Shown: in pieces, positions 7,061 to 63,232 of the stretch
Position numbering within the stretch: position 1 is the stretch's first letter
Layout of the letters: each line of letters opens with the position of its first letter
Source of the DNA: Lineus longissimus
Taxonomy: Eukaryota; Nemertea; Pilidiophora; Heteronemertea; Lineidae
NCBI RefSeq assembly: GCF_910592395.1
Contig: NC_088315.1
Span: 20,409,219 to 20,473,218, forward strand
DNA length: 64,000 nucleotides
Direction: 5' to 3'
Notes under the pieces: model-generated
Database searches by the model: none
What the model was told of the DNA's origin: nothing
The model's input: the letters and a program-made list of their open reading frames with translations, nothing else
Program-made: the position numbers and the translations under genes

Positions 7061-7063
7061 AAT

Positions 7064-29818: not shown

Positions 29819-30984
29819 ATGGGTGCGCCGCTCCTGGTGATGGGTAAGTTAAATATTTTACATTTCGTTGTTTTTTAAAGAAAATCATGGTTTTCCTTCA
29901 CTTGGCTATGTCCTCAAAACAGCTTTTCACTTTGAGAATGCTTGTTGACAGACTCTATCAAAATAAAAGCATCGCAGAATGTTGTTCCATTTGGTGGGCT
30001 TTAAGTTTACACACCAACTGAACGGTTTATCTGAGAGTCATAACAGAGGGCTAAGCATGTTTATACCAGAATCTTTCAATAAATGGACCGAACGACTCCG
30101 ATACTACCGAATCAATGAAACATTTTTCATCGAATTCGGTCGCGCCTAAGCCACAGGGAAAATAATGAGTGCTTCATTGGCACCTGCCAAATTTGAACTA
30201 TATTTTTATGAAATTTGAATTGCTGGTTGTCGCAATGCCAATTCCGGGGATCCCGTCTTGAAAGGACGCCCAATTTTACCAGCTGTCGTTTTTTTCTTGC
30301 ACAAAGTTGTCTGCCTTATTACGCATGCATATATGAGAAGGCCTTGACCCTCCGTCGGCTTTTAGTCTAATTAAATAGTCAGTTGATCCGTAAAAGGTTA
30401 TAAAAGATGGGTTGTTTGTTATTATATATCCTTATGTCGGTTAATCCTTCCTTCACAGAATGGTTATGTGAATAGTGTCACTCATCGAACATGTCAAACT
30501 AACCCGGAGAGCAGAGGTGAAATGATACGTCCCCATCGTGGCCTTAGATGATTCATGGGCTGAAATTAGATTTTACATTTTGTCCATGATAATGGTATAA
30601 TAAGATGCTTGTCCGAAATTCGGGGGTTTTACACTCAAGTGTTTTTTTAAAGAATTGACGTGTGTTTCTGTCATAATCTCAATATCAGTGGAGAGGGATC
30701 AGATAGATTTCGAGTTTGTTACCGTGTTTACATCTTGTACACGATCAGTGCATTATCCTCGAATACCAGGGTCAGTGATATGCCCCTCCCCTCGCACAAA
30801 TTACTGATCTCGGCAGCAGTGTTTGGTGATCTCGTTGATAAGTGTCGATTGAGCCCGCGCATGTCGTGATACATAGTACCCAAGAAGTTATTTTCGCAAT
30901 GTTTTCTTTGTACACAATATACTGATATTACGGTTTTCATTTCAGTGTTGTTCATGGTCGCAGCCTCACGGGTCACATCGTCAG
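29819..30984 (+). CDS. Signal peptide of the giant receptor (exons 29819-29843 and 30946-30984)
   Basis: The start codon sits in a strong context (CCAAAATGG). Exon 1 (29819-29843) ends ATGG/GTAAGT in phase 1. Exon 2 (30946-30984) has acceptor TTTTCATTTCAG and donor TCAG/GTAGGT, again phase 1. Together they read MGAPLLVMVLFMVAASRVTS, a leader with a hydrophobic core and small residues before the likely cleavage point. The join to unit 1 gives ...TSSA-VNLAENKP, an ideal start for an F-type lectin domain. This ATG is chosen because it is the only in-frame start that yields a leader. Confidence 0.8.
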
Positions 30985-33900
30985 GTAGGTGCAATTTCTT
31001 CTTCTTATTCAGCATTCGCTCTGCACTTAAAGGTGTTATTCCCCGGTATGTAGTCCTCCTGCAAGGCGGGATGAGTATTTTACGAGCCGTAGCGGTTACT
31101 AGGTGCCTATCAGTTTTTTCGGTCACCCATTGGTAACCCCAAAATCCTGTCAACTGAGTTTGACTGAAAGAAAGTTTCAGCTGGTGAATTGCACCCTAGG
31201 CGGCAGCACTGAATGGAGCAAGTTTTGGCAACCTAGGTGACAGTAGGCGAACTAAAGTAACTGGAGTTTGTATGGGATATTCCCGAGGTCAAAGTCAGTA
31301 TTTCCGCTTAATGTGCAACTACATTTGTGGGAAACTTTTGATGTGATCCTTTAATTCATCATCATTAAAGCAATTTCACCCAGGCCCGAAATGTTGCTAC
31401 GAAAGAGAGCCTTTTTTGATTTGGCCCATAGCCTAACATCCTTTCCTTGGGGAAGGGGGGGGGTCATATAAAGACATAAATAATAATCAAAAATATAACA
31501 ACCGAGGTCCCCCCCTTGTGGCCAGAAATGTGCGGCTGTAGAGGATAACGGAAAACGTCATAGTGCTGAAGAGGCATTGTCTTTTTCTCAAAGGTCTATA
31601 ATTTTCAACAATTCGCCGATGTTTGATTGCAGAAGTTGACCAGAACTAAACCCAAGCCTTCTGATTGGCTCGTTGAAAAAGAGCACATCAAGATGCAGAA
31701 TTTGGCGCATTTGATTTTTTTTGGACTGGCTGATCCAACAGAAATGACTCTAAATTTTCTTTTGGAATACCTACATTGTTCTTCTTTTGACCAGCTGTTA
31801 ACCTAGCGGAGAACAAGCCAACAAACCAATTTGATGACCTAGATGGTGTTGACAGATCTCACTATGCAGTGGACGGGGATCGGGGACAGATGTACCACGA
31901 AGACGGGTGTACGCATACTCTCTTCAACGCCCAGGACACCTCCAACAACAACTGGTGGTCGGTTGACCTTGAAAGTAACGCACGTGTGGCGATGGTTGTG
32001 CTCTATAATCGTGGAGACTGCTGTGGTAGGTACACAGCCCGCAGTGACTGCATACATGACATTTGAATTATTGTACTACCTGTTTTCAGAATCAAGCTTC
32101 ACGCTTAGGCGACCTCCTTTCAGTTCTTCTCCTTCAACGCCAGGCCTAGGATCAGTTTTGTGACCAAACCTGGTGATTTAGCGGGTCCGTTCCGATGAAC
32201 TCCTCTTCAGTATGTTCCTTTCTAAGAAGTTTGAGTCATTTGAAGTTTCCACTTTGGAATTGCACAGGGTAACAGATTAAATTTAAACGAAATTTAGATA
32301 ACATTTCATATCCTTGTGTGATGAATATGTTTCAATTTCTACACAATTTTGAACTTTTTATGCCCAGGGTCCAGATTAGCTGATTTCGACATCGTTGTTA
32401 CGAAAACGGCTCCAGTGAAAGGCCAAAAACTCGAGTACACCCCCTCCGATGTTTGCTTCCACAAAGATGGCGGACTTGAGACAGGAGCAGTGCTAACTGT
32501 CCCATGTTTGAAGCGTGGCAAATATCTGGCAGTTGTGAGATCAAGGGAGGAGCCGCTGACGTTGTGTGAGGTCGAAGTTTACGAGGCTCCACCTGGTAAG
32601 ATACCTTAGTGACATGGCATCCTCCGTCCCTGATTCTGTCATCCACTGTTAGCCATTATGATCAAGCAAGTAGTTGCATAAACACAGCCTGCGAAAGAGT
32701 CCGGGGGACGAGGTACAGCCACCTGACTACGGTGGATCCTTCAATGTGCCTCATGAAAAGAATCTGATGCAAATAACAGAACCGTAATCATCTTTAACGT
32801 CAACCAAAAATATTCATGAGCATATACCTTTGAAAAACGGCGATGCTCAAGGGAAATTTATTAGGTTTGTTCGACAGCTTTTTTGAGGATACGACTCTAC
32901 CTTGTTCTTCAGGTTATGGTCACCGTACTGGAGACTGCAGTGGCAGCGACATCAAGAAAGTTGAAGGACCAAGTGTTGGCGAGTGTGCGAGGGAGTGTAA
33001 TCTATTAGCCAACTGTAAGGGCTTCATGTTCAACGACCAGGGCACCGGTAGTTACTGTTGGCTGAAAAGTGGCGAGTGTACAACACTGACTTATACGAGT
33101 ACCACCAATTACCACTTCTTCAGCAAAATAGGTGAGTGAATCCTTAACTGTCAGCACAGAGATAGTTGACTCATTTTAGTTTGGACGAATTTGAGTTTGA
33201 ATAGACTGCAGGTACCTTTATCATACAGTTTATGTACACTCTTAAAACAAAGCGATTGTGACCTTTTCGAAAGAGTTTAAGGTTTTACAGCCCACACAAA
33301 TGCAACCCCTAGACGTCTTTGCCCCTGATTGTTTTGGAGTAGTGCAAAAGCGCAATGGAAAGCTAACTGTGTTTTCTGAAAAACTCTTAAATGTTTTTCA
33401 CCAGCTCAGGCCAACAGCTTGCTAGAGCGTTGTTCTTCCAGCACTGATGATGGATGACGAGCAATACATTCCTGTCCTCAGCGTGTCCTCTTCATAGTAA
33501 TCACTTTAATCCTCTTAAGGGTGAATACAATTCAATTTAATCAATTTAATTTCAGATATTGAGCTGGTTAAGTCACCCGATGGACATTATCAAATCACAA
33601 GCCTCGACGATGCAGAGGATTACTGCAGTAACTATGCCCCAGGTTGGAAGGTGGCGTCCTACGCCGAGATGATGGCAGCATTCGACTTGGGCTATGAATA
33701 TTGTAGCTGTGGATGGCTTTCTGATGGCAGAGCTGGTTATGTTATGCAGGAGTGGCGCACTGGATGTGGTGCTCGAGGTTACAGCTTCTGCGGATCCAGG
33801 GGGCGCTACAACACTTATTGCACCTCCGCAGGTAAGGAAAAACAAATAGCCTCGTTTTAAGTGAGAAAATCAAGCGTACAGGGAATCTATATCCTCATCC

Positions 33901-36900
33901 TCCGTGCGCAGGACCGGAACTCTGTTTATAGATAAAGTCGTTCTGACCCTGCTTGAATTGGCCGCCCTTGCATCCAAATGGCCTTGACTAAGGCCATTTC
34001 GTTATTATAAGACTTTTGGGGCTTTTAGTCACACGAAAGTTTGTAATATGGTTAAAAAGATAGCTTAAAACATTTTGGTTGACCCAGTTATTTTAAATCT
34101 TGACTAATCAATAATAAACATTCACAATTCGATATGCTCACTTTTAATGGTAATTTTGTGCACACCCAAATTCGGTTAGTTTTTAAACCTTGAAGTTTTA
34201 TGATGTAGCCTTTTAGACATGAATTGGGATGGGGAGGGGGGGGGCTAAGCGGGATTATCTTTCATACAATCTTTTGTCTGTAGCACACGAAGGAGTAAAA
34301 AGGTAACGTTTTTTTTACTTCAGCAACAATAGAAGCAACAACGCTAATACCAACAACGACTCCCTTCCAAATAACAACAACCACAACAGCTTCCCCATCA
34401 GCAGGTTAGTGGGCCTTAATCTTAAGCAAGGATGAGAGAACGACCGAGGTCAAGGAAATCCACATGTTTTTGTTGGCCTTTTTGGCTACTTTTAGTTAAA
34501 TTAATAGACACTGGTAAACAAATCCACCGGTGCAATTTGAGATGAGTTTAGGGGAACACAATGGGTTGTAATTGTTAAAGTAGTGCATCCCTTGCCGTGA
34601 CCTGGGTGTTAGTTGAGAGAGAAACCAGACTAACCTGATACTAGTACATCAGTGGGCAACGTTAGAAAAACTTAATAAAAGCTTTCAAACAATATAAGCT
34701 TCAATTGACAAACAAATTTTCTTTTCAGGGCCCGTTTTCGACCTTTCATTTATACTGAATACCGACTTTACAGAAGATCTAAAGGATCCAAGTAGCCAAG
34801 CATACAAGGATTTGGCAGAAAGGGTTGTGGCAATGGTGGGTGTGCAGAGGTGGATTAGTAATACATCCTCTATCCTACCACATAGACAGCTGAGAATGTC
34901 GATATTTAAGCTGGCATACCCGTCAGCAGAATGTAACTTGCCAAATATCAAAATAGCAAATAGCAAACGGCATTAGGCATGTTTGGATAGAACTTTCAAC
35001 AGTTATAATCGGTGAATTATCCTATTGACAAATATCCTTTTCAGTTGATGAAGGGTTACAAAGACTCTCCTATGGGTGACAAGATCAGCAAAATCAATAT
35101 TGTCGGCTTCAAGTAAGTTGGATATTTTTGTGAGTTTTAAGTCAATGCGCAATGATTCAGATGTGTTGTCCTCTTCATGAAACAAGCCATTTGTAAATAA
35201 CGTTCCATCATCGTTATCTCTATGTTCAGCGGTTCCCTTTGGAGCCTCCTGTTTTCATAATAGAGAATGTGATAGGGGGAGGCTTTAACTCAATGTCACC
35301 AAGGTGATCTGTTGAAAGAAATACAGTCTTTTGTGGTTGATTCGTCGAACTTTGAAGATACTGTTGTATGATGCATATCGCAAGAAGTTTTAAGATTAAA
35401 TGCTAGTTCTCATCAATTAGTTTTATTGTGGCTGTAAACTGCACGGCGTCTGTTAGAACCATTATTAAACATTCTGCTGCCTGCTCTCGATTCACACACA
35501 ACACACGTCAAGTCATGCCATGGGCCAGTGACATCAGAAATACATTTCATTTGCAATCTTTATTAGATTCACAAACAAAGCGCTCAATATATCTGTATTT
35601 CTCATTTCTTTTACTTGCCAATACTTATAGGGAAGGAAGTATAGTGGTTCTAGTTCAGATAGAATTCACTGCGAGTTTGACTGAGGACGACATGCAAACT
35701 ATCAATAGTGATAGCATTGCTCAGACGCTGTATAACTTTGCTAAAGATGAACCACTTCCTGCCGATCTTGCAGTAGAAGTAGAGTCCATTTCCGTTTCTA
35801 AACCAGGTAAGCAATAACATACAGCCCGAAAATACTTTTTTATGGTAAATTAGCTAACTTTACATTTCATTTATATTATTCATCACTTTCATTATTTTGG
35901 GTCTGCGTGGTATTTTTGGACTGAAGCCTTATACGAGGGTTTGTCACCTCTAAGTAAGACCTGGTGTTGGATGGGTAAAGCATCATCCAATCCAAAGCTT
36001 ACTTGGAAGTTCTCCAGGAATCTGAGATATCACTTTTCGCCTTGTCTTCTCCAATAGTTGAATAATTGAACCATGTACGTCATTGTCCAAGGTGCTATAG
36101 TTCTGAAAATCTTCAAGACGAAGCCAAATCTGTCAATTTTGTCTATCTATCTATCAATGCTTATTGTCCTTGAACAGCTGTTAACCTAGCGGAGAACAAG
36201 CCAACAAACCAATTTGATGACCTAGATGGTGTTGACAGATCTCACTATGCAGTGGACGGGGATCGGGGACAGATGTACCACGAAGACGGGTGTACGCATA
36301 CTCTCTTCAACGCCCAGGACACCTCCAACAACAACTGGTGGTCGGTTGACCTTGAAAGTAACGCACGTGTGGCGATGGTTGTGCTCTATAATCGTGGAGA
36401 CTGCTGTGGTAGGTACACAGCCCGCAGTGACTGCATACATGACATTTGAATTATTGTACTACCTGTTTTCAGAATCAAGCTTCACGCTTAGGGGACCTCT
36501 TTTCAGTTTTTCTCTTTCAACGCCAGGCCTAGGATCAGTTTTGTGACCCAACCTGGTGATTTAGCGGGTCCGTTCCGATGAACCCCCTTCAGTATGTTCC
36601 TTTCTAAGAAGTTGAGTCATTTGAAGTTTCCACTTTGGAATTGCACAAGGTAACAGATTAAATTTAAACGAAATTTAGATAACATTTCATATCCTTGTGT
36701 GATGAATATGTTGCAATTTCTACACAATTTTGAACTTTTTATGCCCAGGGTCCAGATTAGCTGATTTCGACATTGTTGTTACGAAAACGGCTCCAGTGAA
36801 AGGCCAAAAACTCGAGTACACCCCGTCCGATGTTTGCTTCCACAAAGATGGCGGACTTGAGACAGGAGCAGTGCTAACTGTCCCATGTTTGAAGCGTGGC

Positions 36901-39900
36901 AAATATCTGGCAGTTGTGAGATCAAGGGAGGAGCCGCTGACGTTGTGTGAGGTCAAAGTTTACGAGGCTCCACCTGGTAAGATACCTGAGTAACATGGCA
37001 TCCTCCGTCCCTGATTCTGTCATCCACTGTTAGCCATTATGATCAAGCAAGTAGTTGCAAAAACAGAGCCTGCGACAGAGTCCGGGGGACGAGGTACAGC
37101 CACCTGACTACGGTGGATCCTTCAATGTGCCTCATGAAAAGAATCTGATGCAAATTACAGAACCGTAATCATCTTTAACGTCAACCAAAAATATTCATGA
37201 GCATATACCTTTGAGTAAAGGCGATGCTCAAGGGAAATTTATAAGGTTTGTTCGACAGCTTTTTTGAGGATACGACTCTACCTTGTTCTTCAGGTTATGG
37301 TCACCGTACTGGAGACTGCAGTGGCGGCGACATCAAGAAAGTTGAAGGACCAAGTGTTGGCGAGTGTGCGAGGGAGTGTAATCTATTAGCCAACTGTAAG
37401 GGCTTCATGTTCAACGACCAGGGCACCGGTAGTTACTGCTGGCTGAAAAGTGGCGAGTGTACCACACTGACTTATACGAGTACCACCAATTACCACTTCT
37501 TCAGCAAAATAGGTGAGTGAATCCTTAACCGTGGATGCAGAGCTAGTAGACTCATTGTAGACTCTGATTCTTTGATCCGACACCGAGGTGGTGTGTCTTA
37601 CTAGAATGGTCTCAAGTAGATTACCGGACTGTTCGGATGGTGAAGCAGAGGGATGTATATTTGGCGCAAAAAGAGGCCCTATGAGTAGAATACACAAAAA
37701 CTAAAACACATGTAGCATAGTCAATGGAATTATTTATTTTCACAAACAACTTCAAATTAGTTTATAATTCGATATATGGAAAAACTTGTAAGAATGTCTT
37801 TTCACAAAGTGGCCTTTTGAGGACAAAGCCACAAGCTGAATGTTCACATCAACCAAACGTTTATACAGTCAAGTTACTTTCAGACGTTCGACTGGTGAAG
37901 TCACCCGATGGACATTATCAAATCACAAGCCTCGACGATGCAGAGGATTACTGCAGTAACTATGCCCCAGGTTGGAAGGTGGCGTCCTACGCCGAGATGA
38001 TGGCAGCATTCGACTTGGGCTATGCATATTGTAGCTGTGGATGGCTTTCTGATGGCAGAGCTGGTTATGTTATGCAGGAGTGGCGCACTGGATGTGGTGC
38101 TCGAGGTTACAGCTTCTGCGGATCCAGGGGGCGCTACAACACTTATTGCACCTCCGCAGGTAAGGAAAAACAAATTAGTTCTAAATGGTAATTTTATGCA
38201 CACCCAAATTCTGTTAGTTTTTTAGCCTTGAAGTTTTATGATGTAGCCTTTTAGACATGAATTGGGATGGGGAGGAGGGGGGGGGGCGGGCTAAGCGGGA
38301 TTATCTTTCATACAATCTTTTGTCTGTAGCACACGAAGGAGTAAAAAGGTAACGTTTTTTTTACTTCAGCAACAATAGAAGCAACAACGCCAATACCAAC
38401 AACGACTCCCTTCCAAATAACAACAACCACAACAGCTTCCCCATCAGCAGGTAAGTGGGCCTTAATCTTAAGCAAGGATGAGAGAACGACCAAGGTCAAG
38501 GAAATCCACATGTTTTTGTTGGCCTTTTTGGCTACTTTTAGTTAAATTAATAGACACTGGTAAACAAATCCACCGGTGCAATTTGAGATGAGTTTAGGGG
38601 AACACAATGGGTAGTAATTGTTAGTGCATCCCTTGCCGTGACCTGGGTGTTAGTTGAGAGAGAAACCAGACTAACCTGATACTAGTACATCAGTGGGCAA
38701 CGTTAGAAAAACTTAATAAAAGCTTTCAAACAATATAAGCTTCAATTGACAAACAAATTTTCTTTTCAGGGCCCGTTTTCGACCTTTCATTTATACTGAA
38801 TAACGACTTTACAGAAGATCTAAAGGATCCAAGTAGCCAAGCATACAAGGATTTGGCAGAAAGGGTTGTGGCAATGGTGGGTGTGCAGAGGTGGATTAGT
38901 AATACATCCTCTATCCTACCACATAGACAGCTGAGAATGTCGATATTTAAGCTGGCATACCCGTCAACAGAATGTAACTTGCCAAATATCAAAATAGCAA
39001 ATAGCAAACGGCATTAGGCATGTTCGGATAGAACTTTCAACAGTTATAATCGGTGAATTATCCTGTTGACAAATATCCTTTTCAGTTGATGAACGGTTAC
39101 AAAGACTCTCCTATGGGTAACAAGATCAGCAAAATCAATATTGTCGGCTTCAAGTAAGTTGGATATTTTTGCGAGTTTTAAGTCAATGCGCAATGATTCA
39201 GATGTGTTGTCCTCTTCATGAAACAAGCCATTTGTAAATAACGTTCCATCATCGTTATCTCTATGTTCAGCGGTTCCCTTTGGAGCCTCCTGTTTTCATA
39301 ATAGAGAATGTGATAGGGGGAGGCTTTAACTCAATGTCACCAAGGTGATCTGTTGAAAGAAATACAGTCTTTTGTGGTTGATTCGTCGAACTTTGAAGAT
39401 ACTGTTGTATGATGCATATCGCAAGAAGTTTTAAGATAAAATGCTAGTTCTCATCAATTAGTTTTATTGTGGCTGTAAACTGCACGGCGTCTGTTAGAAC
39501 CATTATTAAACATTCTGCTGCCTGCTCTCGATTCACACACAACACACGTCAAGTCATGCCATGGGCCAGTGACATCAGAAATACATTTCATTAGCAATCT
39601 TTATTAGATTCACAAACAAAGCGCTCAATATATCTGTGTTTTTTCATTTCTTTTACTTGCCAATACTTATAGGGAAGGAAGTATAGTGGTTCTAGTTCAG
39701 ATAGAATTCACTGCGAGTTTGACTGAGGACGACATGCAAACTATCAATAGTGATAGCATTGCTCAGACCCTGTATAACTTTGCTAAAGATGAACCACTTC
39801 CTGCCGATCTTGCAGTAGAAGTAGAGTCCATTTCCGTTTCTAAACCAGGTAAGCAATAACATACAGCCCGAAAATACGATTTTATGGTAAATTAGCTAAC

Positions 39901-51900: not shown

Positions 51901-54900
51901 GCTAAAGATGAACCACTTCCTGCCGATCTTGCAGTAGAAGTAGAGTCCATTTCCGTTTCTAAACCAGGTAAGCAATAACGTACAGCCCGAAAATACGATT
52001 TTATGGTAAATTAGCTAACTTTACATTTCATTTATATTATTCATCACTTTCATTATTTTGGGTCTGCGTGGTATTTTTGGACTGAAGCCTAATATGAGGG
52101 TTTGTCACCTCTAAGTAAGACCTGGTGTTGGATGGGTAAAGCATCATCCAATCCAAAGCTTACGTGGAAGTTCTCCAGGAATCTGAGATATCACTTTTCG
52201 CCTTGTCTTCTCCAATAGTTGAACAATTGAACCATGTACGTCATTGTCCAAGGTGCTATAGTTCTGAAAATCTTCAAGACGAAGCCAAATCTGTCAATTT
52301 TGTCTATCTATCTATCAATGCTTATTGTCCTTGAACAGCTGTTAACCTTGCGGAGAACAAGCCAACAAACCAATTTGATGACCTAGATGGTGTTGACAGA
52401 TCTCACTATGCAGTGGACGGGGATCGGGGACAGATGTACCACGAAGACGGGTGTACGCATACTCTCTTCAACGCCCTGGACACCTCCAACAACAACTGGT
52501 GGTCGGTTGACCTTGAAAGTAACGCACGTGTGGCGATGGTTGTGCTCTATAATCGTGGAGACTGCTGTGGTAGGTACACAGCCCGCAGTGACTGCATACA
52601 TGACATTTGAATTATTGTACTACCTGTTTTCAGAATCAAGCTTCACGCTTAGGCGACCTCTTTTCAGTTTATCTCTTTCAACGACAGGCCTAGGATCAGT
52701 TTTGTGACCCAACCTGGTGATTTAGCGGGTCCGTTCCGATGAACCCCCTTCAGTATGTTCCTTTCTAAGAAGTTGAGTCATTTGAAGTTTCCACTTTGGA
52801 ATTGCACAAGGTAACAGATTAAATTTGAACGAAATTTAGATAACATTTCATATCCTTGTGTGATGAATATGTTGCAATTTCTACACAATTTTGAACTTTT
52901 TATGCCCAGGGTCCAGATTAGCTGATTTCGACATCGTTGTTACGAAAACGGCTCCAGTAAAAGGCCAAAAACTCGAGTACACCCCCTCCGATGTTTGCTT
53001 CCACAAAGATGGCGGACTTGAGACAGGAGCAGTGCTAACTGTCCCATGTTTGAAGCGTGGCAAATATCTAGCAGTTGTGAGATCAAGGGAGGAGCCGCTG
53101 ACGTTGTGTGAGGTCGAAGTTTACGAGGCTCCACCTGGTAAGATACCTGAGGAACATGGCATCCTCCGTCCCTGATTCTGTCATCCACTGTTAGCCATTA
53201 TGATCAAGCAAGTAGTTGCAAAAACAGAGCCTGCGACAGAATCCGGGGGACGAGGTACAGCCACCTGACTACGGTGGATCCTTCAATGTGCCTCATGAAA
53301 AGAATCTGATGCAAATAACAGAACCGTAATCATCTTTAACGTCAACCAAAAATATTCATGAGCATATACCTTTGAAAAACGGCGATCCTCAAGGGAGGTT
53401 TGTTCGACAGCTTTTTTGAGGATACGACTCTACCTTGTTCTTCAGGTTATGGTCACCGTACTGGAGACTGCAGTGGCGGCGACATCAAGAAAGTTGAAGG
53501 GCCAAGTGTTGGCGAGTGTGCGAGGGAGTGTAATCTATTAGCCAACTGTAAGGGCTTCTTGTTCAACGACCAGGGCACCGGTAGTTACTGTTGGCTGAAA
53601 AGTGGCGAGTGTACAACACTGACTTATACGAGTACCACCAATTACCACTTCTTCAGCAAAATAGGTGAGTGAATCCTTAACCGTGGATGCAGAGCTAGTA
53701 GACTCATTGTAGACTCTGATTCTTTGATCCGACACTGAGGTGGTGTGTCTTACTAGAATGGTCTCAAGTAGATTGCCGGACTGTTCGGATGGTGAAGCAG
53801 AGGGATGTATATTTGGCGCAAAAAGAGGCCCTATGAGTAGAATACACAAAAACTAAAACACATGTACTAAGTCAATGGAATTATTTATTTTCACAAACAA
53901 CTTCAAATTAGTTTATAATTCGATATATGGAAAAACTTGTAAGAATGTCTTTTCACAAATTGGCCTTTTGAGGACAAAGCCACAAGCTGAATGTTCACAT
54001 CAACCAAACGTTTATACAGTCAAGTTACTTTCAGACGTTCGACTGGTGAAGTCACCCGATGGACATTATCAAATCACAAGCCTCGACGATGCAGAGGATT
54101 ACTGCAGTAACTATGCCCCAGGTTGGAAGGTGGCGTCCTACGCCGAGATGATGGCAGCATTCGACTTGGGCTATGAATATTGTAGCTGTGGATGGCTTTC
54201 TGATGGCAGAGCTGGTTATGTTATGCAGGAGTGGCGCACTGGATGTGGTGCTCGAGGTTACAGCTTCTGCGGATCCAGGGGGCGCTACAACACTTATTGC
54301 ACCTCCGCAGGTAAGGAAAAACAAATTACATGTAGTTCTTAATGGTAATTTTATGCACACCCAAATTCTGTTAGTTTTTAAGCCTTGAAGTTTTATGATG
54401 TAGCCTTTTAGATATGAATTGGGATGGGGAGGGAGGGGGGGGGGGGGCTAAGCGGGATTATCTTTCATACAATCTTTTGTCTATAGCACACGAAGGAGTA
54501 AAAAGTAACGTTTTTTTTACTTCAGCAACAATAGAAGCAACAACGCTAATACCAACAACGACTCCCTTCCAAATAACAACAACCACAACAGCTTCCCCAT
54601 CAGCAGGTTAGTGGGCCTTAATCTTAAGCAAGGATGAGAGAACGACCAAGGTCAAGGAAATCCACATGTTTTTGTTGGCCTTTTTGGCTACTTTTAGTTA
54701 AATTAAAAGACACCGGTAAACAAATCCACCGGTGCAATTTGAGATGAGTTTAGGGGAACACAATGGGTTGTAATTGTTAAAGTAGTGCATCCCTTGCCGT
54801 GACCTGGGTGTTAGTTGAGACCCTGTATAACTTTGCTAAAGATGAACCACTTCCTGCCGATCTTGCAGTAGAAGTAGAGTCCATTTCCGTTTCTAAACCA

Positions 54901-57900
54901 GGTAAGCAATAACATACAGCCCGAAAATACGATTTTATGGTAAATTAGCTAACTTTACATTTCATTTACATTATTCATCACTTTCATTATTTTGGGTCTG
55001 CGTGGTATTTTTGGACTGAAGCCTAATACGAGGGTTTGTCACCTCTAAGTAAGACCTGGTGTTGGATGGGTAAAGCATCATCCAATCCAAAGCTTACTTG
55101 AAAGTTCTCCAGGAATCTGAGATATCACTTTTCGCCTTGTCTTCTCCAATAGTTGAATAATTGAACCATGTACGTCATTGTCCAAGGTGCTATAGTTCTG
55201 AAAATCTTCAAGACGAAGCCAAATCTGTCAATTTTGTCTATCTATCTATCAATGCTTATTGTCCTTGAATAGCTGTTAACCTTGCGGAGAACAAGCCAAC
55301 AAACCAATTTGATGACCTAGATGGTGTTGACAGATCTCACTATGCAGTGGACGGGGATCGGGGACAGATGTACCACGAAGACGGGTGTACGCATACTCTC
55401 TTCAACGCCCAGGACACCTCCAACAACAACTGGTGGTCGGTTGACCTTGAAAGTAACGCACGTGTGGCGATGGTTGTGCTCTATAATCGTGGAGACTGCT
55501 GTGGTAGGTACACAGCCGCAGTGACTGCATACATGACATTTGAATTATTGTACTACCTGTTTTCAGAATCAAGCTTCACGCTTAGGCGACCTCCTTTCAG
55601 TTTTTCTCCTTCAACGCCAGGCCTAGGATCAGTTTTGTGACCCAACTTGGTGATTTAGCGGGTCCGTTCCGATGAACTCCCCTTCAGTATGTTCCTTTCT
55701 AAGAAGTTGAGTCATTTGAAGTTTCCACTTTGGAATTGCACAAGGTAACAGATTAAATTTGAACGAAATTTAGATAAAATTTCATGTCCTTGTTTGATGA
55801 ATATGTTGCAATTTCTACACAATTTTGAACTTTTTATGCCCAGGGTCCAGATTAGCTGATTTCGACATCGTTGTTACGAAAACGGCTCCAGTGAAAGGCC
55901 AAAAACTCGAGTACACCCCCTCCGATGTTTGCTTCCACAAAGATGGCGGACTTGAGACAGGAGCAGTGCTAACTGTCCCATGTTTGAAGCGTGGCAAATA
56001 TCTGGCAGTTGTGAGATCAAGGGAGGAGCCGCTGACGTTGTGTGAGGTCGAAGTTTACGAGGCTCCAACTGGTAAGATACCTGAGTGACATGGCATCCTC
56101 CGTCCCTGATTCTGTCATCCACTGTTAGCCATTATGATCAAGCAAGTAGTTGCATAAACAGAGCCTGCGAAAGAGTCCGGGGGACGAGGTACAGCCACCT
56201 GACTACGGTGGATCCTTCAATGTGCCTCATGAAAAGAATCTGATGCAAATAACAGAACCGTAATCATCTTTAACGTCAACCAAAAATATTCATGAGCATA
56301 TACCTTTGAAAAACGGCGATGCTCAAGGGAAATTTATAAGGTTTGTTCGACAGCTTTTTTGAGGATACGACTCTACCTTGTTCTTCAGGTTATGGTCACC
56401 GTACTGGAGACTGCAGTGGCGGCGACATCAAGAAAGTTGAAGGACCAAGTGTTGGCGAGTGTGCGAGGGAGTGTAATCTATTAGCCAACTGTAAGGGCTT
56501 CATGTTCAACGACCAGGGCACCGGTAGTTACTGCTGGCTGAAAAGTGGCGAGTGTACCACACTGACTTATACGAGTACCACCACTTACCACTTCTTCAGC
56601 AAAATAGGTGAGTGAATCCTTAACTGTCAGCACAGAGATAGTTGACTCATTTTAGTTTGGACGACCTGTATTTGAATTTGAATAGACTGCAGGTAGGCCT
56701 ACTTTTATCATACAGTTTATGTACACTCTTAAAACAAAGCGATTGTGACCTTTTTGAAAGAGTTTAAGGTTTTACAGCCCGCACAAATGCAACCCCTAGA
56801 CGTCTTTGCCCCTGATTGTTTTGGAGTAGTGCAAAAGCGCAATGGAAAGCTAACTGTGTTTGAGGAATTGTATCCTATTTGATGCACGGGTGACTCGTGT
56901 TATGTGTCCCTCCCCCCCCCCCCCCCCCCCCATGGTCGTATTCTTGTGGCATGTCATCAGATGACGATCCGCATTGCTTCATCAATCACTTTGATCGATT
57001 TCAGAGCCGTCATTCGAGGTCTCCTTTAAACTCAACCAGATCTTCACGAATGAGTTGAGCAATCCTGATTCGGAGGCCTATAAGGCATTAGCTGCACTGG
57101 TTATGAACATGGTGAGAATTCGGCTTATTTCGAAGCCAGAGCGCAATGTTCGTTAGGGTACAAATCGTCATGTTACAGAATGCAATGTACTCTTGTTTAG
57201 ATACAGTGATGACGTTTCCACTATAATTGCGATTTGATTTAATTTATCAGTAAGAATGAAATTAGTGAAAATAATCTACATGTAGTTGGGAATGCCTTGA
57301 CTGGGATTCGAACCACAGATCTGATTGCTTGTCAACTGCTCCACCAGTTGATCTATTGCGATTGCAAAGATATTCGCAAAAATACTTGTGCTGATAGCTT
57401 AAACGTTCCAGTTATTCCGTGTTGGTATCTGTACATGATACGTCTTCTGCATGCCACCTCTAGATATTCAAAAGCCCATAATATGGCAAGCTTTTTCTGT
57501 TTTGCTCATAGTCCCGGCTATCATCGTTACATTGTACATTCAGCTGCCTCTCTAACATTTCAAAGCTTTGTTTTTCTTCAGATGTTGAATGCCTACCAGA
57601 ACAATCCATATATTGGAAAAATTTCAATTCAGGGTTTCAAGTAAGTTGGATCATTCACCATAGGATGTCGTTAGAATCGTTAACATTGGCAACTTAAAGT
57701 CAACGTACGTGTACATCAACCGTCATGTACACTATCACATAAAGCATAAAGAAGCACGGGTAGTGAAGAACAACGATAATATCCGCAAGTTTCAAGTTCG
57801 CTATCTAGTTATAGCCTCTATAAAAACACTTTAACAAATGTACCTGGATGGCTCACAATTATCAACTTCTCCTTCTCCCTCTTTCATAATTTAATGATTC

Positions 57901-60900
57901 TGTCATATTTCAGGGCAGGAAGTGTTATTGTAGCGACAAAAGTGGAACTTGCGGATGGTGTTACGGCGGAGGCTGCGAACGGCATCAGTAGCGAAAGTAT
58001 TGCTGCCACCTTGGTTGACTTTGTTAAAGATGACCCATCTGCCGCCAATCTTGGTGTTGATGCAGGTTCCATTGTTGTCAAAGGTAAGATGTCTAGTCTT
58101 GTCATGGCTCTCTTACACCTTTTTTTTACATAAACCTTAGATAACATCAGATTGCATGACGATTGTTGCAAAAATGAGATATTTCTTACGAGGTACATAT
58201 TGTTAATCGAATTAATGCAAATTTTTCGATTAAAATGCAAATTTTGTTTTTCTAAATACATTTTCAGAATGCTTCTAAATAGATAATGGTAGACGCCCTC
58301 TTTATATGTAGCAGTATATCAATAAAAAAAATGTATATCGAAAAAGAGGAAAGTTTAGGACACCAATAATATATTTTCTACATTTCTCTCAATAGAAAGC
58401 AGTGATATTGAAAACGTAACACCTGGAGTCACCGAATCCGCGATGGAAACCACAACACCTGGAGTCACCAAATCCATGATGGAAACCACAACACCTGAAG
58501 TCACCGAATCCGGGATGGAAACAACAACACCTGGACTCACCAAATCCGTGATGGAAACCACAACACCTGGAGTCACCAAATCCGTGATGGAAACCACAAC
58601 ACCTGGACTCACCAAATCCATGATGGAAACGACAACACCTGGAGTCACCAAATCCGGGATGGAAACCACAACACATGGAGTCACCGAATCTGTGATGGAA
58701 ACAACAACACCTGGACTCACCAAATCCATGATGGAAACCACAACACCTGGACTGACCGAATCCGGGATGGAAACAACAACACCTGGAGTCACCAAATCTG
58801 TGATGGAAACAACAACACCTGGACTCACCAAATCCATGATGGAAACCACAACACCTGGAGTCACCGAATCCGGGATGGAAACAACAACACCTGGACTCAC
58901 CAAATCCTTGATGGAAACTACAACACCTGGAGTCACCGAATCCGGGATGGAAACAACAACACCTGGACTCACCAAATCCGTGATGGAAACCACAACACCT
59001 GGAGCCACCAAATCCGTGATGGAAACCACAACACCTGGACTCACCAAATCCGTGATGGAAACCACAACACTTGGACTCACCAATTCCGTGATGGAAACCA
59101 CAACACATGGAGCCACCAAATCTGTGATGGAAACCACAACACCTGGAGCCACCAAATCCGTGATGGAAACCACAACACCTGGAGTCACCAAATCCGTGAT
59201 GGAAACCACAACACCTGGAGTCACCAAATCCGTGATGGAAACCACAACACCTGGAGCCACCAAATCCGTGATGGAAACCACAACACATGGAGTCACCAAA
59301 TCCGTGATGGAAACCACAACACATGGAGCCACCAAATCCGTGATGGAAACTACAACACCTGGAGTCACCAAATCCGTGATGGAAACCACAACACCTGGAG
59401 TCACCAAATCCGTGATGGAAACCACAACACATGGAGTCACCGAATCTGTGATGGAAACCACAACACCTGGAGTCACCAAATCTGTGATGGAAACCACAAC
59501 ACATGGAGCCACCAAATCCGTGATGGAAACCACAACACCTGGACTCACCAAATCCGTGATGGAAACCACAACACCTGGAGTCACCAAATCCGTGATGGAA
59601 ACCACAACATATGGAGTCACCGAATTTGTGATGGAAACCACAACACCTGGAGTCACCAATTCCGTGATGGAAACCACAACACCTGGAGTCACCAAATCCG
59701 TGATGGAAACCACAACACCTGGAGTCACCAAATCCGTGATGGAAACCACAACATATGGAGTCACCGAATCTGTGATGGAAACCACAACACCTGGAGTCAC
59801 CAAATCTGTGATGGAAACCACAACACATGGAGCCACCGAATCTATGATGGAAACCACAACACCTGGAGTCACCAAATCTGTGATGGAAACCACAACACCT
59901 GGAGTCACCAAATCCGTGATGGAAAAAACAACACATGGAGTCACCGAATCTGTGATGGAAACCACAACACCTGGAGTCACCAAATCTGTGATGGAAACCA
60001 CAACACATGGAGCCACCAAATCCGTGATGGAAACCACAACAGATAGAGTGACAACACTTCGAATGGAAACTACTACCTTAGCAAGTACGTATCCTCTAAG
60101 ATGTGCTTGTCTACACTTCCTGATTAGGGAACGCCCGATCAAATGGCCTGTACTCTACATGCTTAGAAATTCTGAATTGAATCCACTTAATGAGTGGACG
60201 GCACCGCATGCAACAGGTTGAGAGAGGTTGGAGTCATTCACTTTGTTTTTTATGACGCGTTGTCCAAATTCCACTAAGTCTAATCCAGCAGACTTCAAAG
60301 TTTCACATGAAACAAGATATTTTGTATTTTCTTTGTAAAACCGTGATAAACCAAAATGCTATTTACTGGTGAAATTGTCCTTATGGGTCTCACTATCCGG
60401 TCATTAAACTAGGGCAAGTTGGAATTCCTTTTGGTAATTGCATGCGCGAGACCAATACACGTTGGCCCTGCAGCGCCATTCCCAAGTATTTGAAAATTGG
60501 AACAGCTCGTGTTCAGCGTATTTTCTTGTGGCTTAGGTAGGAGATAGAAATTCCAATTGCCGTAGTGCAGTACTTAAGCAAGCGAATTCGCTGAAACTTG
60601 GAATTTATAGTATTTGCATAACGCAAAGGAATTGTTGAAATTTATATTCAGTATGTTTAGATTTAAAACTTAATTTTCACATTTTTAAACGAATGGAATA
60701 CGCCTTCAAGGTGATGCCCTGGCAGAGGTGATTAATTATCAAATTCTGTTCACATTTACAGAGCCATCCTTTGACGTTTCGTTTAAATTGAAGAAGAATT
60801 TTACAAAAGATTTGGAGGATCCAAGTTCTGAGGCTTATAAGGAACTCGCAGCAAAGATGATGGATATGGTAAGAACAATATCTGGATGATTTGCAGAAGT

Positions 60901-63232
60901 GATCATCATCAAATATGGCCGACACTAAGCTTTCAAATGCTAATTTTGACGAATGTACATGTTTTGTACATAACCTTATCACTTCGTTCATTGTTACCGT
61001 CAAATCTGTCTAATTAAAGTTCATCATGCCCATGCATTATTTATTCCAGTTGATAAACGCGTACAAGAATAATCCATCTGTTGGAGCAGTTTCAATCATT
61101 GGATTCAAGTAAGTAAAATGCTGACTGCATTGTAGACCTACCAGAACCTTACAGGGTGCGCTAAATTGGCGGGAAATTTTAGCAAATTGAGCGCGGCCAA
61201 CCAAGTGTTAACTCGCGTATGCATTGCTCCACGCAACACGGCGAGATAGCGTGACATTTGGTTGGTCAATCGCTGCAGTTTACGCCGAAGTTTACTGGTA
61301 TTCTTGTCTTAACAGTTAAAGGGACAACTTGGGCGAGAGATCAAGATGGCCAGGAGGACAATGTCTCTACGCACCGCCAGATCTAGCATCATACTCATGC
61401 ATATCTCTAATGATTTTCGTTCATGTTGCGAGGACCTTTATATTCCGTTCCTGACCATCCTGAGATCAGGTTTTTGCTATTCTCCTACCTTGAAATATCG
61501 AGAGGCGGAGTATATTTAAAACCACCGATTACGTCAGGGTGGTTCTTGAATATTGCGCAGTTTTAATAATTTTCCAATGATCTTGTTCGGAGAAGCTGCG
61601 GTACTGCTGGAAGCCATTTTTGTATAAACAAACCATGATATCTCATGCTTGAGTTTTCCCCTTAATAGATCGTTGTTTTCCCGTTTTTCAGGGAGGGCAG
61701 CATCATCGTAATATCAAAGGTGGAACTCGCGGAAAATGTGACAGCAGACGATGCGAAATCGATCGACAGTGAAAGCGTGGCTTCAACTTTGGTGGAGTTT
61801 GTTAAAAATGACCCTCAGGTAGCTGCTGATTTGGGCATTGATACGGAATCTATTTCTGTTAAAGGTAAGTCAGTACTTATGTCGGGAGCGACCAAGGAAA
61901 GTTTCACAACTCTATAAGAGATAGACGAATGACAAAACTCAAAGTAGGCAAATATATTTTATCGGCAGCGGCTGAAGAGTTCTCTGATTTCTCTTGCTGC
62001 TAATGAATCAGAGTGTCGCGTCGGTGGGGAGTTTTTGCAAATCACCCGAAATGCCAACGTGAACGCCTATCTCATTGTTTTACCATCTGATAACGAAGTC
62101 AAACAATGGGAGCCTCTGACGCCTGCTGTCTGGAAGCTGAGCAATGTCAATAGATTGAGGGTCAAGATGGGGAACTGTAGTCAGCCAAAGTTCACCAGCA
62201 TCATCTCTTAAAATGAACTTCCTAACTTGCTGTTTGCAGCTGTCCTTCCAACACAACCACCCCGTCCAACCCCTCTCGAAAGTAAGTAAACATCTTTTAG
62301 CATTTTACCCGTTTGATATTGAGAATGGAAGAATTTGAGTAACTAAAGTTAATAAAGGGCAAGGAAACAGATTGCAAAAGGTAATAAATTACGCTTAATC
62401 AAGTCAAACTAACAGAACAAATTTTTATTTATGAATTGTCTTGTTTTCAGCCGTCACACCCGAGCCTTCAACCGAAAGTCCTCAAATGACAACTTTCTCC
62501 TCAGCAGGGTCAGGTAAGTAATCAATCCACACATGAGAGATCTGGGGATTCACTCGCAAAAATAGAGGTTTTGAGCTTCTGAAAAACTATTTATGTTTTT
62601 TTCAGCCAACACTAAACATGCAACCGGTTGAGGAAATATTATTAACACCACAATCCCTTGCCTAGTTTGTATTCAAAACGTTCCATAAACCAGATTTCTT
62701 GGCAAAACGCTCCGCATCATTGATGCATTTCTACTTAGTTTTTAAAAGACTGTATCATACATGCCATGTTGACATTGAATTGTAACTTGTTTCAGCTGGG
62801 ACATCGACGATACGAATTTGGCTCCCGATCTTGATGGTAATCTTGGTGCTTCTTCTGATTGCTGTGATAGGACTGATGACGTTTTGCATACTCAAGAAAA
62901 AACACCCAGCCCACAAATATCAACATTATCGAGGAGAAAAGTAAGTCTGAGAGTCATTTGGCCAACTCCATCCAGCAACCTGTAGGCCTATAGCACATCA
63001 GTTCGACTGGTGAAGCCGCAGGAAGTTTGAAGGGAAAGGTTTAGTCAAAGACACTTTCACAGATTCCATCATCCAACAGAACTCAACTGGCTATCGTCAT
63101 CAAGAATCTGGGTATGCCCTTCAAAAACTTTGGACATTCAGGGAAAATGAATGTTCTAAAGTACGTTTTCTATGTTCTTGTTTCAGTGAGTATGAGAGTG
63201 ATCGGGCCAGTGTGGCATCGTCTAAAGTCTAG
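29819..63232 (+). CDS. Giant modular mucin-like receptor: F-type lectin / PAN / Link / SEA array, mucin domain, one TM helix (gene span)
   Basis: A gene span assembled from 58 predicted exons. Every splice site is GT/AG and every junction keeps frame. The summed CDS is 11,367 nt (3,788 residues). Order: signal peptide (1-21), units 1-5 (22-2331, 462 residues each), unit 6 (2332-2676), unit 7 (2677-2902), SEA (2903-3014), mucin repeats (3015-3577), SEA (3578-3690), Pro/Thr stalk, TM near 3731-3755, tail to 3788. Domain boundaries mostly fall on phase-1 introns, so whole modules can be duplicated or lost without frame damage. The predicted product is a type I surface glycoprotein. F-type lectins bind fucose, Link domains bind hyaluronan, and SEA domains often self-cleave; that this protein does so is inference. 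The exons are given in the entries below. I know of no named protein with this architecture, so no symbol is offered. Confidence 0.8.
31795..35806 (+). CDS. Array unit 1: F-type lectin, PAN, Link, Thr linker, SEA
   Basis: Exons: F-lectin a 31795-32025, F-lectin b 32368-32595, PAN 32913-33131, Link 33556-33831, Thr linker 34324-34404, SEA a 34729-34835, SEA b 35045-35112, SEA c 35631-35806. The lectin shows VNLAENKP, AVDGDR, GCTHT, NNNWWSVDL, NRGDCCGSR (the RxDx4R fucose motif with the upstream His) and LTLCEVEVY. PAN has six cysteines (GDCSG, GECARECN, ANCKGF, SYCW, GECT). Link shows GHYQITSLDDAEDYC, YCSCGWLSDG and RYNTYC. The linker is TTTPFQITTTTT-like. SEA carries EGSIVV, the self-cleavage consensus. 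Odd points: Ser in CSGSD where all other units have Gly, DIELV rather than DVRLV at the Link start, and a unique intron before the Link exon that is shared only with unit 7. Confidence 0.85.
36178..39848 (+). CDS. Array unit 2: F-type lectin, PAN, Link, Thr linker, SEA
   Basis: Exons: 36178-36408, 36749-36976 (F-lectin), 37294-37512 (PAN), 37884-38159 (Link), 38370-38450 (linker), 38770-38876, 39086-39153, 39673-39848 (SEA). All splice sites and phases are as in unit 1, and the fucose-motif His, RGD and Arg are unchanged. Distinct residues: CEVKVYE for CEVEVYE in the lectin, GYAYCSCGW for GYEYCSCGW in Link, and NDFTED with LMNGYKD in SEA. The PAN-Link intron is the units 2-6 type, which reads open into the Link exon from 37724. 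That extension lacks a splice reason to be coding. Confidence 0.85.
40220..43887 (+). CDS. Array unit 3: F-type lectin, PAN, Link, Thr linker, SEA
   Basis: Exons: 40220-40450, 40792-41019 (F-lectin), 41337-41555 (PAN), 41926-42201 (Link), 42405-42485 (linker), 42810-42916, 43126-43193, 43712-43887 (SEA). Complete and in frame. Distinct residues: EVPPG at the lectin end (shared with unit 4), GFLFND in PAN (shared with unit 6), and EFAASL in SEA (shared with unit 5). A one-base deletion follows the F-lectin a donor in the intron and does not affect coding. The SEA motif EGSIVV is intact. Confidence 0.85.
44259..47931 (+). CDS. Array unit 4: F-type lectin, PAN, Link, Thr linker, SEA
   Basis: Exons: 44259-44489, 44832-45059 (F-lectin), 45377-45595 (PAN), 45966-46241 (Link), 46448-46528 (linker), 46853-46959, 47169-47236, 47756-47931 (SEA). 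Complete, with all cysteines and the fucose motif kept. EVPPG is shared with unit 3, TDFTED with units 1 and 5. The linker acceptor reads TTTATTTCAG where the others have TTTACTTCAG. Confidence 0.85.
48303..51967 (+). CDS. Array unit 5: F-type lectin, PAN, Link, Thr linker, SEA
   Basis: Exons: 48303-48533, 48876-49103 (F-lectin), 49421-49639 (PAN), 50010-50285 (Link), 50485-50565 (linker), 50890-50996, 51206-51273, 51792-51967 (SEA). Complete and in frame. LMNGYKD is shared with unit 2 and EFAASL with unit 3. The G-run in the Link-linker intron is followed by a short deletion (the AGCGGGATT stretch present in other units is missing near 50415). Confidence 0.85.
52339..54606 (+). CDS. Array unit 6: F-type lectin, PAN, Link, Thr linker; SEA deleted
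   Basis: Exons: 52339-52569, 52910-53137 (F-lectin), 53446-53664 (PAN), 54035-54310 (Link), 54526-54606 (linker). Distinct residues: NALDTS for NAQDTS in the lectin and GFLFND in PAN. The expected SEA a and b exons and the 5' half of SEA c, including the GSIVV motif, are missing, so the linker donor most simply splices to unit 7 at 55273, which keeps phase 1. See the entry at 54820 for the SEA remnant. Confidence 0.8.
54820..54901 (+). pseudogene. Truncated SEA c exon remnant of unit 6
   Basis: The intron sequence after the linker (GTTAGTTGAGA) runs straight into the second half of SEA c (CCCTGTATAACTTTGC ... TCTAAACCAG/GTAAGC). Against unit 5 this equals loss of about 1.1 kb (roughly 50781-51886), with AGA as microhomology at the junction. 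The normal acceptor is lost. The preceding GGGTGTTAG could act as a substitute acceptor (start about 54815). Spliced from 54606 it reads V-ETLYNFAKDEPLPADL and so on in the correct frame, which would add a SEA tail without a cleavage site. The polypyrimidine tract is weak, so skipping is more likely. Confidence 0.7.
55273..56607 (+). CDS. Array unit 7: F-type lectin and PAN only
   Basis: Exons: 55273-55503, 55844-56071 (F-lectin), 56389-56607 (PAN). The lectin acceptor is AATAG rather than the AACAG of units 2-6. The lectin ends EAPTG and PAN has TTTYHF instead of TTNYHF. No Link or Thr-linker exon follows. The PAN donor (phase 1) joins the SEA exon at 57005 in frame. The intron after PAN matches unit 1 rather than units 2-6 for about 250 bp and then diverges near 56862, marking the right edge of the duplicated array. 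Confidence 0.85.
56912..56931. repeat. 20-base poly-C run
   Basis: An uninterrupted run of 20 C in the intron just beyond the edge of the array. It is a G-quadruplex-prone and length-unstable tract, and its length may be affected by sequencing. Confidence 0.9.
57005..58083 (+). CDS. SEA domain preceding the mucin exon
   Basis: Exons 57005-57111, 57582-57640 and 57914-58083, with the same three-exon structure and phases (1, 0, 2, 1) as the array SEA domains. The middle exon is three codons shorter. The sequence is clearly diverged: EPSFEVSFKLNQIFTNELSN, MLNAYQNNPYIGKISIQGFK, AGSVIVATKVEL. AGSVIV corresponds to the G/S self-cleavage site. It is more like the 60762-61864 SEA than like the array copies, so it predates the array expansion or is the older type. 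Confidence 0.8.
57285..57370 (-). repeat. tRNA-derived SINE head
   Basis: On the minus strand a B-box GGTTCGAATCC is perfect, and upstream GATCAACTGGTGGAGCAG resembles an imperfect A-box and D-arm. It is inserted in a SEA intron. An intact tRNA is unlikely because the anticodon-arm spacing is irregular. Confidence 0.5.
58396..60084 (+). CDS. Mucin-like tandem-repeat exon (36-bp repeats)
   Basis: A single 1,689-bp exon; acceptor TTTCTCTCAATAG, donor TTAGCAA/GTACGT, both phase 1. It begins ESSDIENVTPGVTESA and then has 45 consecutive 12-residue repeats (58443-60062) of the type METTTPGVTKSV, varying at Pro/His/Tyr, Val/Leu/Ala and Lys/Glu. Thr, Ser and Pro make up more than half of the repeat, as in O-glycosylated mucin domains. 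No cysteines occur. There is no stop in all 45 repeats, so the reading frame is under constraint or the array is young. It separates two SEA domains and would form a long stiff stalk. Confidence 0.85.
60762..61864 (+). CDS. Membrane-proximal SEA domain
   Basis: Exons 60762-60868, 61050-61108 and 61692-61864. Reads PSFDVSFKLKKNFTKDLEDP, LINAYKNNPSVGAVSIIGFK, EGSIIVISKVELAENVTADD. EGSIIV fits the self-cleavage consensus. Lengths and phases equal those of the SEA at 57005-58083. In transmembrane mucins the membrane-proximal SEA is the site where the extracellular part is held non-covalently to the TM subunit; by analogy this is its likely role here. Confidence 0.85.
62240..62513 (+). CDS. Pro/Thr-rich stalk (exons 62240-62281 and 62451-62513)
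   Basis: Exon 62240-62281 encodes AVLPTQPPRPTPLE, and exon 62451-62513 encodes TVTPEPSTESPQMTTFSSAG. Both are phase 1 to phase 1. They form a short O-glycosylatable stalk between the last SEA domain and the membrane helix. Confidence 0.75.
62606..62631 (+). other. Possible alternative exon giving a secreted form
   Basis: An excellent acceptor (TTTATGTTTTTTTCAG) lies between the stalk and TM exons. Spliced from the donor at 62513 in phase 1 it adds ANTKHATG and then TGA, which would end the protein before the membrane helix. No AATAAA was seen between here and the TM exon, so it may be chance or may trigger decay. Confidence 0.3.
62796..62940 (+). CDS. Transmembrane helix and start of the cytoplasmic tail
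   Basis: The acceptor is TTGTTTCAG. It encodes TSTIR, then the hydrophobic helix IWLPILMVILVLLLIAVIG, LMTFCIL, the stop-transfer KKKHP, and HKYQHYRGE. There is a single helix, and positive charges on the inner side fix a type I orientation. The donor AAAA/GTAAGT leaves phase 2. Confidence 0.85.
63187..63232 (+). CDS. Terminal exon: end of the cytoplasmic tail
   Basis: The acceptor is CTTGTTTCAG. Joined to 62940 it reads N-EYESDRASVASSKV and then TAG at 63230-63232. The last four residues, SSKV, fit the class I PDZ-ligand pattern (Ser/Thr at -2, hydrophobic at 0). Two tyrosines in YQHY and one in EYES are possible phosphorylation sites. A signalling role is inference. Confidence 0.75.

Follow-up and report, generated by a model that had tools for sequence, protein, structure and literature searches.

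To our knowledge, membrane mucins of the MUC16 or SEA type carry no lectin, PAN or Link domain, and we likewise know of no F-type lectin, PAN or Link units in IMPG2, whose order of a SEA domain, a long glycosylated stretch, a second SEA domain and a transmembrane (TM) segment is the one met again at the C-terminus of the protein described below, a likeness of description and not of sequence comparison. The SEA-type membrane mucins combine glycosylated or mucin stretches with SEA domains, a single TM segment and a short tail, and MUC16 has about 56 SEA domains (available text of PMC4456727). IMPG2 is a membrane protein with two SEA domains; in the mouse the second carries a GSIVV hinge, and a 33-kDa fragment from the retina fits cleavage there (PMC10877459, in part). 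The SEA domain of MUC1 has been suggested to come apart under mechanical stress (PMC11681175, in part). F-type lectins have been joined to other partners. Oyster sperm bindin, an acrosomal protein, consists of one to five tandem F-type lectin domains, each with a mid-domain intron that serves as a place of recombination and through which the array changes, and its binding pocket is under positive selection; the Drosophila proteins furrowed and CG9095 are predicted membrane proteins in which an F-type lectin is combined with C-type lectin and CCP domains (both in the available sections of PMC5712786). Link domains outside the chordates are patchy in distribution, with protostome examples in mussel and Owenia; those of mussel consist of Link with or without a TM region (XLINK2 has one), and one is joined to C1q (PMC12383584, in part). 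The main text of that article contains neither 'nemert' nor 'Lineus', and lophotrochozoan phyla other than molluscs and annelids are described as neglected (PMC8878817, in part). Nemertean lectins are little studied, and no paper naming both an F-type lectin and a nemertean was found in the literature searched.

The locus analysed here lies in a window of 64,000 nucleotides of the genome of the ribbon worm Lineus longissimus (contig NC_088315.1). A hand-built splice model on the forward strand runs from an ATG at 29819 to a TAG ending at 63232, exactly the limits given by the original prediction, and encodes 3,788 residues, in agreement with the predicted size of about 3,790. For one repeat unit, exon limits were placed by hand according to splice sites and reading phase; the other units were then mapped by blastn and the unique ends added. 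As predicted, the exons splice in frame, the terminal stop codon being the only one in the coding sequence of 11,367 nt; their number is 61 and not the 58 first proposed. Introns measure 169 to 1,102 nt in the model and are GT-AG in 60 of 60 cases. Forty-five of them are in phase 1, eight in phase 2 and seven in phase 0, those in phases 0 and 2 lying within SEA domains and ahead of the final exon. Neighbouring modules are joined in phase 1, which allows duplication of modules in frame. Feature coordinates are collected in Table 1.

Table 1. Features of the F-type lectin–PAN–Link–SEA gene, in window coordinates
Feature	Position	Strand	Remark
Exon 1, signal peptide part 1 (ATG)	29819..29843	+	model; residues identical in P0001
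Exon 2, signal peptide part 2	30946..30984	+	model; residues identical in P0001
Unit 1 F-type lectin	31795..32595; exons 31795-32025, 32368-32595	+	
Unit 1 PAN exon	32913..33131	+	
Unit 1 Link exon	33556..33831	+	
Intron read-through, end GKEKQIASF and stop of P0001	33832..33860	+	
AATAAA in intron stretch found in unit 1 only; possible poly(A) signal of short form	34113..34118	+	weak
Unit 1 Thr-rich linker exon	34324..34404	+	
Unit 1 SEA	34729..35806; exons 34729-34835, 35045-35112, 35631-35806	+	
Unit 2 F-type lectin	36178..36976; exons 36178-36408, 36749-36976	+	
Unit 2 PAN exon	37294..37512	+	
Unit 2 Link exon	37884..38159	+	
Unit 2 Thr-rich linker exon	38370..38450	+	
Unit 2 SEA	38770..39848; exons 38770-38876, 39086-39153, 39673-39848	+	
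Unit 3, F-lectin, PAN and Link	40220..43887 (whole unit); F-lectin 40220-40450, 40792-41019; PAN 41337-41555; Link 41926-42201	+	
Unit 3, Thr linker and SEA	Thr 42405-42485; SEA 42810-42916, 43126-43193, 43712-43887	+	
Unit 4, F-lectin, PAN and Link	44259..47931 (whole unit); F-lectin 44259-44489, 44832-45059; PAN 45377-45595; Link 45966-46241	+	
Unit 4, Thr linker and SEA	Thr 46448-46528; SEA 46853-46959, 47169-47236, 47756-47931	+	
Unit 5, F-lectin, PAN and Link	48303..51967 (whole unit); F-lectin 48303-48533, 48876-49103; PAN 49421-49639; Link 50010-50285	+	
Unit 5, Thr linker and SEA	Thr 50485-50565; SEA 50890-50996, 51206-51273, 51792-51967	+	
Unit 6 (without SEA)	52339..54606; F-lectin 52339-52569, 52910-53137; PAN 53446-53664; Link 54035-54310; Thr 54526-54606	+	
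Remnant of third SEA exon (unit 6 deletion)	54818..54901	+	skipped in model; stop three codons after its AG if spliced in
Unit 7 F-lectin and PAN	55273..56607; F-lectin 55273-55503, 55844-56071; PAN 56389-56607	+	
Diverged SEA	57005..58083; exons 57005-57111, 57582-57640, 57914-58083	+	
Mucin exon, 563 aa	58396..60084	+	36-nt tandem repeat; 33% Thr
Membrane-proximal SEA	60762..61864; exons 60762-60868, 61050-61108, 61692-61864	+	
Two Pro/Thr linker exons	62240..62513; 62240-62281, 62451-62513	+	
Transmembrane exon and start of tail	62796..62940	+	hydrophobic peak VILVLLLIAVIGLMTFCIL
Last exon, end of cytoplasmic tail and TAG stop	63187..63232	+	
Candidate poly(A) signals of long form	63419..63548	+	ATTAAA 63419, AATAAA 63543

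In the model protein, a signal peptide is followed by five units of the form F-type lectin–PAN–Link–Thr linker–SEA and by a sixth that lacks the SEA domain. The C-terminal part comprises a seventh unit (F-type lectin, PAN and a diverged SEA), the mucin exon, a further SEA domain, linkers, one TM helix and a tail. The predicted inventory of seven F-type lectin, seven PAN, six Link and seven SEA domains, with a mucin domain, a TM helix and a tail, is thus reproduced in the model. Apart from the signal peptide, the hydropathy scan gives one strong stretch, the TM helix. The protein contains 121 cysteines and three N-glycosylation sequons, none of which lies in the units. The join of units 6 and 7 must leave out the remnant of a SEA exon listed in Table 1. 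Since all introns have canonical ends, the single stop is terminal and the domains score above curated Pfam cut-offs, the model stands above chance, and we regard it as highly probable that a single genuine gene, encoding a membrane protein, occupies the locus.

The domain assignments rest on Pfam scans of the exons and open frames of unit 2, of a typed composite unit and of the two unique SEA regions, the remaining copies being assigned by their identity to unit 2. On the composite unit, scores against curated cut-offs were 48.2 vs 26.4 bits for SEA (PF01390), 46.2 vs 27.8 for F5_F8_type_C_2 (PF22633, positions 1-57 of the 91 of the profile being matched), 42.1 vs 27 for Xlink (PF00193), 28.5 vs 27 for PAN_4 and 24.9 vs 21.4 for PAN_1. 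Pfam thus backs every type of domain; the F5/8 type C profile PF00754, with 25.2 bits on the composite unit, does not reach its cut-off of 28.2. The unique SEA domains exceed the 26.4-bit cut-off as well, with 32.3 bits for that of unit 7 and 37.0 bits for the last one. Among sequences of the PDB, the lectin finds striped bass FBP32 (9.2e-21) and the eel lectin 1k12 (1.7e-12) over most of the domain, the Link domain finds aggrecan and TSG-6, and the SEA domain finds SEA chains of transmembrane proteases, with MUC1 as a weak match (E 0.1). The mucin exon contains 33% Thr, 8% Ser and 6% Pro over its 563 residues. The layout of a membrane mucin (a long Ser/Thr/Pro repeat, SEA, TM and a short tail) is present.

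For the F-type lectin family, the available text of PMC5712786 gives His52, Arg79, Arg86, the adjacent cysteines 82-83, a further two disulfides and a cation motif. The histidine, the RxD and the second arginine of the Lineus domains align with those of FBP32 and 1k12, and their six cysteines, identical in all copies (0 differ), align with six of 1k12. RGDCCGSR and YAVDGD each occur seven times in the model protein, that is, the adjacent cysteine pair and a cation motif of the h2DGx kind. The spacing between histidine and arginine departs from the family. H-x31-RxDx4R is found in seven of seven domains, five residues being inserted relative to the eel lectin, and the HX26 form has no occurrence in the model protein; the motif of the review is HX24RXDX4(R/K), with 26 residues in the eel lectin, and indels in the loops are permitted there (PMC5712786, in part). 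In a loose regular-expression scan that also returned some spurious rows, the spacing was 26 in most domains of eight relatives from outside Lineus, 31 in the Lineus protein P0019, and 33 and 37 in P0018 (the latter without the histidine). The assignment to F-type lectins is accordingly made by profile, since the strict motif spacing fails, and the affinity for fucose is uncertain because the spacing is 31 and not 24-26. Judged from the aligned residues, the lectin units are likely to bind a fucose-like sugar. The predicted fucose binding thus stays plausible with respect to the aligned triad and is weakened with respect to its spacing.

The Link domain has six cysteines, two of them added to the four canonical ones, which line up with those of CD44. 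Compared with the residues of TSG-6 and CD44 that we take to be the hyaluronan contacts, the tyrosine after G-[KR] and that of GRxGY are kept, a Lys/Arg is replaced by His, and Arg78-Tyr79 of CD44 is replaced by Ser-Cys. With a pair of tyrosines left from this presumed contact set and none of the basic residues compared, a reading as hyaluronan receptor is unsupported. Hyaluronan binding by the Link domain, put forward as a possibility from the first inspection, is doubtful, few of the presumed contact residues being kept despite the four canonical cysteines.

All seven SEA domains keep a cleavage-type hinge, G-S-[IV]-[IV]-V, in the form GSIVV in five of them and as GSVIV and GSIIV in one each; the last two differ from the usual motif, and an eighth match, at residue 3009, lies outside a hinge position. 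Such motifs do not prove cleavage, because the two SEA sites proposed in MUC16, in contrast to which the G-S hinge motif is kept here in seven of seven domains, were not confirmed (PMC4456727, in part). Were up to seven hinges cleaved, the chain would become a string of beads held together by folding.

The units are intragenic duplications of recent date that include introns, a point on which the original prediction is silent. Units 3, 4 and 5 are 98.0-98.2% identical to unit 2 over the whole 4.04 kb, introns included, the pieces of units 1, 6 and 7 are 97.1-99.3% identical to it (both by blastn), and exon by exon the copies agree with unit 2 at 97-100%. The copies also have differences of their own. 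About 300 bp between the Link and Thr exons are unique to unit 1 (33848-34145); unit 6 lacks about 1.1 kb relative to unit 2, which takes most of its SEA domain; unit 7 lacks Link and Thr linker, so that its lectin and PAN are followed directly by an older SEA domain. The introns behind the PAN exon of units 1 and 7 (33124-33374 and 56600-56861) match each other at 94% over 262 nt and resemble for about 50 nt only the different sequence that units 2-6 share at this place; the first and last copies therefore seem to retain an older intron.

Exons have changed less than introns among these copies. In units 2-5, the set to which the test was limited because an alignment including unit 1 had misaligned intron stretches, 19 of 1,386 exon columns are variable vs 72 of 2,664 intron columns (Fisher p 0.007), and gaps occupy none of the exon columns vs 25 of the 2,664 in introns. 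Pooled over 21 unit pairs, pN/pS is 0.25 (pS 0.0223, pN 0.0057), a value built on few differences and non-independent pairs, with fewer exons for the pairs involving units 6 and 7. The first lectin exon (F1), which encodes the histidine and the first arginine of the pocket, has two variable positions in 231 over the seven copies. These figures speak for a protein that works and is under constraint, though gene conversion may also even out the copies.

Taken as a whole, the gene product would be a membrane-tethered, multivalent, glycan-binding mucin capable of shedding, a reading to which we give somewhat better than even chances. It would be a type I membrane protein displaying seven F-type lectin–PAN modules, six of them joined to Link, on Thr-rich linkers and a mucin stalk of 563 residues. 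Terminal sugars resembling fucose, whether on microbes, in mucus or on other cells, could be the ligands of the lectins, with the repeats supplying avidity. The SEA hinges, if self-cleaving as in IMPG2 or MUC1, would leave pieces joined by folding alone, and a chain so cleaved could shed under pull and keep the epithelium clean or intact. The copies suggest that the array may have grown when a 4.04-kb segment with eight exons was recently duplicated in frame. A more specific version is tentative and, in our estimate, rather unlikely in its full form: all seven hinges self-cleave in the secretory path, the lectin–PAN–Link–mucin beads stay linked non-covalently and snap off singly under pull, the recent and probably polymorphic 4-kb duplication sets the number of beads, and the anchor remains in place when the outer beads carry off bound microbes or debris.

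Among the alternatives, the one that survives best starts from the public protein P0001 (LOC135493022, Lineus longissimus, 348 aa), which equals residues 1-339 of the model, the residues peculiar to unit 1 included, and then continues with GKEKQIASF, translated from the intron as far as a stop at 33860. This identity implies that P0001 and the model share their first five splice junctions. With 9% of the length of the model, P0001 has exactly the form of a secreted F-type lectin–PAN–Link protein, and such a product of 348 aa could be the main one, the long chain being rare or the remainder a separate transcript. The AATAAA at 34113, 253 nt past the stop of P0001, lies in the intron stretch found in unit 1 only, although AATAAA occurs 12 times over 29.8-64.0 kb and five of these are the single copies that each full unit has in its Thr–SEA intron. 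Against this reading, the 55 further exons are open, have GT-AG sites and show the pN/pS of 0.25 between units, and short gene models are what would be expected when reads map to near-identical repeats. The later introns were also scanned for signal-peptide starts, defined by simple consensus as a hydrophobic signal that begins with ATG, is encoded by one exon or by a joined pair, and ends at a phase-1 donor, each intron being taken alone. The scan recovers the split signal peptide of the gene itself as the sole match in 29.8-31.8 kb and finds no other start on either strand of the 58 introns that follow, which makes several separate genes less likely. At E 1, tblastn with the lectin, PAN and Link of the unit listed no match upstream of 31,700. 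A short secreted lectin–PAN–Link form ending in the first Link intron may thus exist, on the evidence of P0001 with weak support from the AATAAA; that it is the main product we consider unlikely.

Less probable again is a role as a gamete or self-recognition molecule, comparable to oyster sperm bindin, with repeat number varying between individuals. The tandem lectins and the mid-domain intron recall bindin, each F-type lectin of the Lineus gene being split by an intron after DCCG, and units about 97-98% alike would be prone to change in copy number. In Lineus, however, the lectins are accompanied by PAN, Link, mucin, SEA and TM parts, and the units show conservation: where the pocket of bindin is under positive selection (PMC5712786, in part), the F1 exon scarcely varies. 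Self-recognition, one of the functions first envisaged, is for this reason not favoured, the units being near-identical and their pN/pS low in a comparison of copies within one genome. Slightly less credible still is a secreted component of gel or slime rather than a receptor-like coat. Ribbon worms live under thick mucus (PMC6410017, in part), and the mucin exon, the Thr linkers and the many SEA hinges able to free the ectodomain would suit such a use, but neither the strong TM helix nor the tail, which has a splice-joined exon to itself, does so, and Pfam scans of the composite unit and of two C-terminal pieces gave no VWD or cystine-knot match. The gel-forming coat of the original prediction consequently fits poorly with the TM helix and tail. 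An assembly artefact (stacked haplotype copies) or a decayed array or pseudogene is very improbable: near-identical tandem copies often cause assembly errors and unit 6 has a deleted SEA, but no model exon is broken in frame, the copies differ privately (introns of unit 1, deletion of unit 6, end of unit 7), and the assembly, presumably the version from which the window comes, was built from 79-fold PacBio data with HiFi libraries, fragments of 12-20 kb that are long compared with a 4-kb unit, and purge_dups (PMC8593623, in part), private differences and long reads together making haplotype stacking less likely.

Searches of 5.8 billion proteins, covering lengths of about 254-1,909 and 2,083-6,629 aa under word limits, found no other protein with this domain combination and no longer copy of the model; within the same limits of length and words, and in the part of the literature consulted, no second case was met of the combination for which the original prediction knew no described protein. 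Between 2,083 and 6,629 aa, where the words were drawn from the initial 500 residues, two matches cover 3% and 2% of the query, and no giant relative was found in this range. Between about 600 and 1,909 aa, where scoring was confined to the 8,000 candidates with most words in common, eight matches cover 16-28%; all have PF22633 and none has PF00193 or PF01390. Between about 254 and 808 aa there are 13 matches, of which P0001 covers 69% and the other 12 cover 21-33%.

Three further Lineus proteins, P0017, P0018 and P0019, have F-type lectins 23-54% identical to those of the window. P0017 has six Pfam F-type lectin stretches followed by a Thr/Pro-rich stalk and what looks by eye like a TM segment. 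P0018 joins laminin G to two F-type lectins, with a PAN-like stretch between them by eye that is 29.9% identical (E 0.002 in one direction of the comparison, 0.33 in the reverse) and is not established as PAN. P0019 combines fn2, VWD and EGF with an F-type lectin of the same 31-residue spacing as in the window. Pfam at E 0.01 gives no Link, SEA or PAN in any of the three. With these three further mosaics, shuffling of F-type lectins seems to be a habit of the Lineus lineage, and the gene of the window is a new architecture among them rather than a new kind of molecule. If the proposed reading is true, a single chain unites multivalent lectins of the fucose type with SEA mucins sensitive to shear, two strategies known separately, and the near-identical units offer a natural series on how shedding depends on the number of repeats and on cleavage of the hinges. 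As P0001 covers roughly the first tenth of the gene, the case suggests how repeats of recent origin within a gene can keep most of it out of public annotation.

Outside the gene, two overlapping open frames at 7031-7660 look retroelement-like by eye, with no Pfam match at E 0.01. The open frame at 22368-22763 has a weak QVR/Ly-6-like match of 25.4 bits, below the cut-off of 27.3. On the strand of the gene, an open frame at 8238-8945 matches Laminin_G_3 with 29.9 vs 27.6 bits, laminin G being the domain that P0018 joins to F-type lectins. A 50-bp tandem repeat of 66 copies with 97% matches occupies 25354-28662 and ends about 1.2 kb upstream of the start codon.
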